A stretch of 24,129 nucleotides of DNA, taken from a virus. The first letter of the stretch is position 1; each line of letters opens with the position of its first letter. A model generated the notes under the pieces. It ran no database searches. It was given only the letters and a program-made list of their open reading frames with translations, and had not been told where the DNA came from. The stretch is taken from the IMG/VR virus record IMGVR_UViG_3300032086_000934, positions 1-24,129 of that record; one strand, written 5' to 3'. This document shows positions 13,627 to 16,435 of the stretch, piece by piece. The translations under genes were made by a program, and so were the position numbers.

Positions 13627-14085
13627 ATGGCTGAAGTATTAAAGTCCGGTGTTGGTGCTACGTTTAGCATCGTTGCCGGTGAACCTGCTACCTATGACGA
13701 CACTGGCTTTGCCGCACTTACTTACCTAGAAGTTGGCGAAGTCATCTCTATTGGCGCTTACGGCGGCACAGCAGAAGTCCTAACCCAAACCCCTGTTAAG
13801 TCTGGCATCATCAAGAAAGTAAAAGGCTCAACCAACTACGGCTCTCAAACGCTACAGTTCGGCCTTGAGACTGACACTGGCCAAGCTGCCCTACAGTCTG
13901 GCTTTGATGGCGCTAACAAAAACGCAATCCACAGCGTTAAGCTTGAATATTCTGACGGTTCTATCCGCTACTACACCGGCCTTGTGACTTCTTTCGAGTT
14001 CCAAGAAATTAGTGCAAGCTCGTTCGTAAACGCCGCTTCGACTATCGAAGTGAACAACTCAGTTGTAGACGTGGTGCCTGCATAA
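13627..14085 (+). CDS. Major tail tube protein
   Basis: A 152-aa protein with GAGG before its ATG. It is rich in Gly, Thr, Ser and Val with the strands expected of a lambda gpV-like tube: TYLEVGEVISIGAYGGTAEVLTQ, GIIKKVKGSTNYGSQTLQFGL, a loop DTGQAALQSGF, then HSVKLEYSDGSIRYYTGLVTSFEF. The N-terminal KSGVGATFSIVAG and the conserved-type D.GQ..L..G motif are typical. No C-terminal Ig domain is present. It is followed immediately by the tail assembly chaperones, the canonical order. Confidence 0.85.
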   Translation: MAEVLKSGVGATFSIVAGEPATYDDTGFAALTYLEVGEVISIGAYGGTAEVLTQTPVKSGIIKKVKGSTNYGSQTLQFGLETDTGQAALQSGFDGANKNAIHSVKLEYSDGSIRYYTGLVTSFEFQEISASSFVNAASTIEVNNSVVDVVPA

Positions 14086-14086
14086 T

Positions 14087-14467
14087 ATGGATTTATCTAG
14101 CCTAGCCCTTGAGCAAACCGCTGAAATGATTCTTAAAGATCCAGTATCTGGTGTTGACACTGATGCTGTGATTGTTTTATACGGCAAAGACTCAAAGCAA
14201 TATCGTGACTCTTTCGCAGTACAAGCGAAGAAAGCCGCAGCCATGAAGTCAAGCGATAGCGATTACCAGGAGAAGCTCTCGGAGCTAGGACTAGATATTT
14301 TCATTAAATGTACCAAGGATTGGCGCAATGTTGGACTAGATGGCAAAGAGCTAGAGTGCACGCCAGAAAACGTGACCATGCTGTATAAAGATGAGCGCTT
14401 TGTATGGATACATAATCAAATTAGTGCCTTCATGGAGAAGCGAGCAAATTTTATGAAGCGTCCATAG
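14087..14467 (+). CDS. Tail assembly chaperone, upstream part (gpG-like)
   Basis: The 126-aa zero-frame product is acidic and helical (FAVQAKKAAAMKSS, YQEKLSELGLDIFIKCTKDWRNV, FVWIHNQISAFMEKRANF). It lies between tail tube and tape measure, the place of lambda G. It does not end in the tail tube but wraps the tape measure during assembly. Near its 3' end the zero frame reads GCA AAT TTT ATG, giving a heptamer A AAT TTT at 14446-14452. A -1 slip there joins it to the downstream frame to make a 242-aa fusion. The zero-frame product ends four codons after the slip site (MKRP, then TAG). Confidence 0.8.
   Translation: MDLSSLALEQTAEMILKDPVSGVDTDAVIVLYGKDSKQYRDSFAVQAKKAAAMKSSDSDYQEKLSELGLDIFIKCTKDWRNVGLDGKELECTPENVTMLYKDERFVWIHNQISAFMEKRANFMKRP
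14446..14452 (+). promoter_or_regulatory. -1 ribosomal frameshift site A AAT TTT
   Basis: The heptamer fits the X XXY YYZ rule in the correct phase of the gpG-like gene (codons AAT 14447-14449, TTT 14450-14452). After slippage the next codon is TAT at 14452 in the frame of the 14491-14814 gene, which is open from there. A stem of about six pairs (14455-14460 with 14471-14476) with a ten-base loop follows at once and could stimulate slipping. Confidence 0.8.
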
Positions 14468-14814
14468 AGGCGCTTTTAAACTGGGCAAAAATGGAGGCGT
14501 TTCTTGATACGACTCCAAACGAGGCCAAGATTTGCAGGCGTGAACAGGGTGGATTGAAGTCTAACCCAAAGGGGCCGTTGGCTTACTTGATCGACACGTT
14601 TAATGAGCTTGGACAGATTGTTTCAGGTGATGGCGGTCAACTAAGGCCGCTTAACTGGGCAGACTTGGCCGGGTATTGCCAAGTCACTGACACCAAGCTT
14701 GACCCGTGGGAATGTAAAACCCTAATAGATATGTCAGTCACTTATTTGTCTTCACATTTTAAATACAAAGACCCGCGCAGTCTAGCGCCTATAGCTGGAG
14801 AATTTAATGGCTGA
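14452..14814 (+). CDS. Tail assembly chaperone, frameshift part (gpT-like)
   Basis: This frame has an ATG at 14491 (107 aa), but 13 codons before it (YEASIEALLNWAK, 14452-14490) are open and read like coding sequence, and no clear ribosome site precedes the ATG. The better model is expression only as the -1 fusion: residues 1-122 of the upstream protein followed by 120 residues from here. The part contains WADLAGYCQVTDTKLDPWECKTLID, a motif seen in downstream parts of such chaperones. The fusion would recruit tail tube subunits to the tape measure. It overlaps the tape measure start by eight bases. Confidence 0.8.
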   Translation, partial: YEASIEALLNWAKMEAFLDTTPNEAKICRREQGGLKSNPKGPLAYLIDTFNELGQIVSGDGGQLRPLNWADLAGYCQVTDTKLDPWECKTLIDMSVTYLSSHFKYKDPRSLAPIAGEFNG

Positions 14815-16435
14815 TATTGCAGAGTTAGGTTTAAAGATAAACAGCCAACCAGTCGACCAAGCTGGTGCAAAGCTAAAGAACTTTGGCAAGATTGCGAGTG
14901 ATACAGAGCGCAAGGTTCTGCAATCCACTAATGGCATGGCTACTGGTTTTAAGTCGTTTAACACGTCTGTTAAGTCCGCCGCGCCAGTTGTTACTACGTT
15001 TGAAAAAACCGCAAAGACAGCCACCGCTACAAGCGGCAATTTCTCTAATAGCATTCGTCAAATATCCCTACAGCTTTCACAGGTTGCACAGCAAGGCGCA
15101 GTGACTGGTGACTTCTTCCGCGCGTTTACCGTCCAGCTTCCGGATTTACTCCTAGGCTTTGGTACGTTTGGTATCTTAATCGGTGCTGTAGCTGGTGCAT
15201 TAGGTGGGCCTTTGATTGATGCGTTGAGTGGGTCAAGCCAAGCATTAAAAGACGTTGATAAGGATATAGAAGAGCTTACCGATGGCTTTGAAGAGCTAAC
15301 AGACGCGCAACGTGCTTATGTTTTGTTATCGTCTGAGATTAAGCAAGCTGATCTGCAAAAAGAATTCGACGACATAGCGCAAGAGGTAAAGACCGCTGCC
15401 GATGAGTTAAAGGTACTCGAACAGGGCTTTAGGCTTATATCTCGTGGCAATAGAACGCAACGAGTTACTGTATCTGCTGATGCAGAAGAAATACAAGAAG
15501 CTGAGCTTGCACTAAAAAGACTTAGTGCGGTTCGTGACAATATAAGCCTAAAGCTTGATCGTGAAATAAAGCTACAAGATGAATTAAAGAATGCCACCGA
15601 CTTGACAACTCAGGCGGCGCTTGAGGCAAGCCGTGAGCAATCAAGGACTGACCTACTTAACCAGCTTGAGAATGCAACTGATGCCATACGGACAGCAGGT
15701 AGCACGCAGACTGAGATAGCTATTCGAGCGGCTAGCGAACGTAATTCTATTTTGGCGGCTGCTTATAATCAAGACTTAATTAGTTTTGCTGAGTATCAAG
15801 AGCAGCGTGTTCAAAACCAATTAAACCTACAAGCCGAACTGACAGAGATTGACGAAAAGGCACAGCAGCAACGCACGCAAATACTAACGGCTGGACAAGA
15901 GGCCGCCCTATCAGCTAGTGGTCAATTATTCGGAAACCTTGCATCCATTGCTAAAGAGGGTGGCGAAGACCAGTTTCAAGAGTATAAGAATCTTGCAAGT
16001 GCACAGGCTGCTATTGCTGCATCATTGGCAGCTATCAAGGCATTAGCAGAGGGTGGCCCGATACTAGGCCCAGCTTTGGCTGTTTCTATTGGTGCCGTTG
16101 CTGCTATCCAGATTGCCAAAATACAAGGCCAAGAATACCAGTCTAGCCGCGCAAGTGGCGGACAAGCCAAGGGGCGTGTATTAGTTGGTGAGAACGGGCC
16201 AGAGATATTAAACATGGGCAACAGCACTGGCTCTATTACTTCTGCCGCAAGCACTAAGCAAGAGCTAGGCGGCCAAACCGTCCAGCAGGTATTCAACATA
16301 TCACCTGGGCTATCCGGTGCTATCCAAGCCGAAATGCGAGCTATGTTACCATTGATTAAACAAGTTGCCATTAGTGGCGTATCAAGCGACATAAGAAACG
16401 GCGGTTCGACCGCTAAAGCCGTGGGGATTAGATAA
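14807..16435 (+). CDS. Tape measure protein
   Basis: At 542 aa this is the longest gene of the tail tube block and follows the chaperones with GGAG before its ATG. It begins ADIAELGLKINSQPVDQAGAKL, the usual phage tail tape start. Residues about 112-145 hold a Gly/Ala/Leu hydrophobic stretch (LLGFGTFGILIGAVAGALGG), which could insert into the host membrane during DNA delivery. Residues 150-370 are long helices with coiled-coil character, and a second hydrophobic Ala-rich stretch lies near 390-430. It is short for a tape measure; at roughly 0.15 nm per residue a tail of about 80 nm is expected, indicating a short siphovirus tail. Confidence 0.88.
   Translation: MADIAELGLKINSQPVDQAGAKLKNFGKIASDTERKVLQSTNGMATGFKSFNTSVKSAAPVVTTFEKTAKTATATSGNFSNSIRQISLQLSQVAQQGAVTGDFFRAFTVQLPDLLLGFGTFGILIGAVAGALGGPLIDALSGSSQALKDVDKDIEELTDGFEELTDAQRAYVLLSSEIKQADLQKEFDDIAQEVKTAADELKVLEQGFRLISRGNRTQRVTVSADAEEIQEAELALKRLSAVRDNISLKLDREIKLQDELKNATDLTTQAALEASREQSRTDLLNQLENATDAIRTAGSTQTEIAIRAASERNSILAAAYNQDLISFAEYQEQRVQNQLNLQAELTEIDEKAQQQRTQILTAGQEAALSASGQLFGNLASIAKEGGEDQFQEYKNLASAQAAIAASLAAIKALAEGGPILGPALAVSIGAVAAIQIAKIQGQEYQSSRASGGQAKGRVLVGENGPEILNMGNSTGSITSAASTKQELGGQTVQQVFNISPGLSGAIQAEMRAMLPLIKQVAISGVSSDIRNGGSTAKAVGIR

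Follow-up and report, generated by a model that had tools for sequence, protein, structure and literature searches.

In bacteriophage lambda, gpG and gpGT are reportedly produced through a programmed -1 frameshift, as described by Levin in 1993 and by Xu, Hendrix and Duda in 2004, and G/GT frameshifting is an already known kind of event that is standard in long-tailed phages. A review covers the proposed roles of gpG and gpGT in lambda (PMC5009743). Predicted G/GT cases with other heptamers are routine, and include KL1 (GGGAAAC) and AH2 (AAAAAAG) (PMC3483164) as well as phiCbK (AAAAAAC) and Colossus (GGGAAAC) (PMC3556154).

We identified a putative site of this kind in the virus record IMGVR_UViG_3300032086_000934. 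The window analyzed here is the whole 24,129-base record, positions 1 to 24,129. The upstream chaperone ORF begins directly after the stop codon of the major tail protein gene (14083–14085) and ends ...CGA GCA AAT TTT ATG AAG CGT CCA TAG, with the stop at 14465–14467. Read in frame 0, A14446 to T14452 form A_AAT_TTT, an X_XXY_YYZ heptamer in phase with the upstream gene, as a sequence-only reading of this DNA had claimed. An open -1 frame extends from 14425 to its stop codon at 14812–14814 and contains no ATG, GTG or TTG upstream of 14491. From T14452 the frame reads YEASIEALLNWAK-M(14491)...; after a one-base slip T14452 would be read again, followed by YEASIEALLNWAKMEAF... up to the stop. 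The resulting fusion has 122 + 120 = 242 aa, its residues 1–122 being common to the 126-aa unshifted product. Both the open stretch of 13 codons ahead of ATG 14491 and the length of the fusion had been proposed in the sequence-only reading, and our computation agrees. In the 22 genes of the window that were tested there are 22 in-phase heptamers of any kind. Of these, A_AAT_TTT alone opens into a long -1 frame, of 120 aa against 41 aa for the runner-up, and just two, this one included, lie near the stop of their own gene. At the observed rate, the 14-codon overlap would hold about 0.045 heptamers of any kind by chance, and 0.009 of the efficient bacterial classes.

Features of the tail chaperone locus, in window coordinates
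Feature	Position	Strand	Basis
Major tail protein gene (context)	13627..14085	+	phrog_158, E=4.1e-14
Upstream chaperone ORF, 126 aa unshifted, lambda gpG position	14087..14467	+	phrog_313, E=2.8e-17
GGAG, possible Shine-Dalgarno-like stimulator (speculative)	14434..14437	+	8 nt upstream of heptamer, seen in sequence
Slippery heptamer A_AAT_TTT	14446..14452	+	In phase; codon-level conservation in relatives; P-site Asn AAT->AAA, A-site Phe TTT->TTT
-1 frame part of the predicted fusion, 120 aa + stop, lambda T position	14452..14814	+	Phage_TAC_18 (PF23812), E=6.6e-7
Predicted stimulatory hairpin, 8 bp, 6-nt loop	14455..14476	+	RNAfold -9.7 kcal/mol, z -1.9
ORF from ATG-only gene calling, 107 aa, 13 residues short	14491..14814	+	ORF list
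Tape measure protein gene (context)	14807..16435	+	phrog_1538, E=5.1e-26

We propose, with a probability of about 0.95, that, through a programmed -1 ribosomal frameshift, a single start codon would serve for two tail assembly chaperones. The site, its phase, the open frame, the membership of each half in its family, the gene order, and the conservation of site and frame are shown by the analysis. We infer the slippage itself, its efficiency, a role for the hairpin and the following division of labour. Most ribosomes would reach TAG 14465 and produce a G-like protein of 126 aa, and a minority would slip by -1 on the heptamer, aided by the hairpin just downstream and possibly by the upstream GGAG, to produce a G-T-like fusion with a terminal Phage_TAC_18 domain. 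If the pair works as in lambda, the short form would coat the tape measure protein, and the T-like domain of the fusion would recruit the tail tube protein. For a pair of this kind the fusion is expected to be the minor product and to be missing from the virion.

The proposal that the pair takes the place of lambda G/GT is borne out by both the proteins and their neighbours. Part 1, the product of the upstream ORF, is assigned to phrog_313, a tail assembly chaperone family, and part 2, encoded in the -1 frame, matches Phage_TAC_18 above the curated cut-off; this model is matched by all 25 members of the part-2 alignment, and a search of 14 control genomes with it gave no match. The genes are ordered phrog_158, phrog_313/PF23812, phrog_1538, that is, the pair is flanked by the major tail protein and tape measure genes, and the overall order is the same in annotated relatives. 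No significant match was obtained for either half in a sequence-profile search of the PDB, or for the part-2 model in a Foldseek search. AlphaFold models part 2 with a mean pLDDT of 86.8. Its first helix comprises residues 2–19 and spans Met14, which corresponds to ATG 14491, so a product begun there would be without most of this helix; the 13 residues ahead of the ATG lie in the confidently predicted helix.

The end of the -1 frame and the start of the tape measure gene overlap by 8 nt (ATGGCTGA; window 14796–14815). This overlap is common to several relatives, and a GGAG ribosome site lies upstream of the tape measure start. In Acinetobacter phage Effie (L008:2483-5037) the order is unusual, in that a small ORF and the terminase, rather than a tape measure gene, come after the chaperone pair. 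In Vibrio phages K69 and phiHSIC (L063:2036-2563 and L070:1953-2429) an opposite-strand ORF is located between the pair and the tape measure gene.

Alignment of homologues shows that the site and the frame relation are both conserved. We collected 22 non-redundant, diverged loci that encode the peptide R-[AS]-N-F. Because this selection sets amino acids and leaves codons free, codon choice is a fair test of conservation at the site. The asparagine codon is AAT in all 22 loci (log10 P -8.3, or approximately 5e-9, from the codon usage of the locus concerned), and A is the last base of the preceding codon in 18 loci where 5 are expected (P 2e-9). Both P-values assume independent loci; the loci are related and only partly independent, so that the P-values overstate their independence. 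AAT and NNA are kept even in phages of 65–70% GC that otherwise avoid AAT and GCA. In every locus the -1 frame continues for 102–159 aa, commonly without a start codon for 40–300 nt. Judged by these codons, the site is conserved in its nucleotides beyond what the protein demands.

A second set of 17 groups was found with a part-2 profile built from a subfamily alignment, so that the site was not a selection criterion. The -1 relation occurs at the same place in these 17 groups, and the sites include A_AAT_TTT (L056, L057), G_AAT_TTT (L054), C_CGT_TTT (L051), C_CAT_TTT (L053), A_ACT_TTT and G_GCT_TTT (Vibrio phages and phiHSIC), T_TTT_TTC (Donnerlittchen, Barton, YB23, PMBT28 and others), G_GGA_AAC (L045) and lambda's own G_GGA_AAG (L060). 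A stop ahead of the ATG combined with a strong ribosome site for it had been named as the arrangement that would count against a fusion. It did not occur: wherever part 1, part 2 and the site were all recognised in a relative, the stretch from the slip to the position of ATG 14491 is free of stops, and most of these relatives lack a start codon at that position or for tens to hundreds of nucleotides. The -1 slippage is not universal among distant relatives, as three of them are arranged otherwise. In L058 (1001-1070) part 2 is in the +1 (or -2) frame, with the junction AAC TTT TTT CGT TGA; TTT_CGT is similar to the +1 site in influenza PA-X (PMC3498833), and either a sequencing error or a +1 version of this gene pair may be the explanation. 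No recognisable slippery site was found in L059, L061 or L062. L059 (1069-1473) and L062 (1108-1515) have part-2-like frames of weak kinship with GTGA/GTGATG starts overlapping an upstream ORF, as if their part-2 domain were separately translated.

That arrangement, together with an ATG 23 nt beyond the stop codon that is kept in the closest relatives L001 and L002, is what favours reading the window as encoding two separate proteins, with part 2 started at ATG 14491, perhaps by ribosomes that re-initiate beyond TAG 14465. However, the ribosome site upstream of this ATG is weak (GGG only), a start there cuts the first predicted helix, and most relatives keep the frame and that helix with no start codon nearby. 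Moreover, the conservation of the slippery site would lack a reason. We therefore rejected an independent start at ATG 14491 as very improbable. The run of A followed by T at the site could also be taken to suggest that the frames are joined by transcriptional slippage, or by a sequencing error, rather than by the ribosome. The runs comprise only three A and four T, which is short for polymerase slippage. Dozens of phages sequenced independently show this frame break at the corresponding place with varying local bases, and some of their sites have a shorter A run or none (CGT_TTT, GCT_TTT, GGA_AAG). We also rejected transcriptional slippage, and we regard either form of this explanation as even less credible than separate proteins.

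Ribosomal frameshifting is also consistent with the pattern of substitution near the site. L001 and L002 share 97 and 87% amino acid identity with the window in part 1, and the stretch GCAAATTTTATGAAGCGTCCATAGAGGCGCTTTTAA is identical in all three. In the comparison with L002, synonymous changes affect 47% of the informative codons outside the region and 0 of the 15 at 14444–14507 (P 8e-5 if the outside rate applied; P 0.002 by permutation of the longest run). Compared with L001, none of 18 informative codons is changed synonymously (P 0.009). Part of the invariance around the site may stem from the recent shared ancestry of three close sequences. Dual coding is confined to the first part of the invariant stretch, and the rest therefore points to RNA constraint or recent exchange. 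The GGAG upstream of the heptamer is present in L001 and L002 and absent from distant relatives; as it is kept in close relatives only, we rejected it as a general stimulator.

The stem that had been placed downstream of the heptamer was recovered by RNAfold at exactly the same positions; its stability is modest and its spacer short. Its arms are 14455–14462 and 14469–14476, the frame-0 stop codon lies in the loop, and the hairpin is identical in L001 and L002. The predicted spacer between heptamer and stem is 2 nt, or 4–5 nt if the weak A-U/G-U base of the stem opens; the usual spacer between a slippery site and a stimulatory structure is 5–9 nt. Among relatives, the 45 nt after the site have a mean z of -1.23 (SE 0.25, 29 loci), versus -0.49 (SE 0.12) for control stretches further along, where z compares structure with synonymous re-codings of the same -1 protein and the shuffles ignored the short dual-coding stretch. 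The excess structure sits in the longer hairpins of some subfamilies (L018, L023, L030, L034, L035, L051, L054), and the window's own hairpin is shorter, modest, and moderately more stable than shuffles. For this reason a stimulatory RNA structure is likely in the family, and a stimulatory role for the window's own hairpin is moderately likely. The stem is the weakest element of the case, and is real in many relatives as a group.

The relatives also bear on which tRNA movement matters. T_TTY is found in 36 of 38 relative groups. In about 11 of the 38 the P-site codon is unable to re-pair properly, breaking the X_XXY_YYZ pattern, and T_TTY is still kept (the codons are T/C/G_AAT, C_CGT, C_CAT, A_ACT and G_GCT). 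In the window, both tRNAs could re-pair on A_AAT_TTT: the asparagine tRNA would meet AAA with a poor fit at the third position, and the phenylalanine tRNA would match TTT perfectly. The heptamer falls in the class H_HH.U_UU.Y, which ranks among the most efficient in a systematic E. coli study (PMC4066793). Since T_TTY is nearly constant and the P-site codon varies, A-site slippage seems, on this comparison, the indispensable step in the family. A finer version of the frameshift reading would hold that the slip needs only the A-site tetramer T_TTT, read by the phenylalanine tRNA, so that the motif is T_TTY and re-pairing of AAT on AAA is a bonus. Beyond the groups with a broken P site, this agrees with the shifting of the tetramers U_UUC and U_UUU in the E. 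coli study (PMC4066793). However, the full heptamer is intact in the window, and the enrichment of A before AAT, far above chance in the peptide-selected loci, implies that the P site matters in most lineages; we consider this finer version less likely than not. As a description of the chaperone family as a whole, the proposal that its shift is held by A-site phenylalanine slippage on T_TTY while the P-site codon drifts is tentative, at a little under even odds. The family spans phages of Vibrio, Acinetobacter, Salmonella, Klebsiella, Xanthomonas and Salicola and from metagenomes. If the proposal is true, these phages would carry, within a single gene, tetramer and heptamer frameshift sites that form a natural series of long standing and depart from the X_XXY_YYZ rule on which most annotation depends. 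Related sites with differing P-site codons form a natural mutant series suited to asking how far P-site re-pairing counts in bacterial -1 frameshifting.

Gene calling by ATG alone had been expected to yield two proteins, the second truncated at its start, and this is what the public records that we inspected contain. The pair is labelled as two hypothetical proteins, the second starting late by 8 (phiHSIC), 17 (CGphi29), 34 (Donnerlittchen) or 44 (Effie) codons. With part 2 of one relative as query, 103 phage records were matched. The gene model is corrected here, and the same correction is indicated for about a hundred public phage records.

In our literature search, which did not cover the site list of the 2004 survey, no paper was found that describes A_AAT_TTT in a tail chaperone gene; the single match to AAATTTT was a hydrolase pair of a Wolbachia prophage, for which a +1 shift has been proposed (PMC10299305). 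The locus resembles lambda G/GT in its place between the major tail protein and tape measure genes, in the -1 direction, in a slip near the first gene's end, in the prediction of a short product and a fusion, and in having chaperone families on both halves. No detectable sequence kinship to lambda G or T emerged for the two halves. The heptamer differs from that of lambda, as had been pointed out, and the lambda site occurs in one relative, L060. KL1, AH2, phiCbK and Colossus share the gene pair, the logic and the kind of bioinformatic evidence, and the KL1 heptamer is also found in relative L045. However, their A-site codons are A-rich, whereas the window has a phenylalanine TTY codon there. 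Bacterial IS elements share U_UUY tetramers, U_UU.U_UU.C heptamers and a downstream structure as stimulator, but there the shift serves transposase regulation rather than tail assembly (PMC4066793). Compared with these systems, what appears mildly new, judging from the aligned sites, is a family that conserves A-site slippage on T_TTY while its P-site codon drifts.
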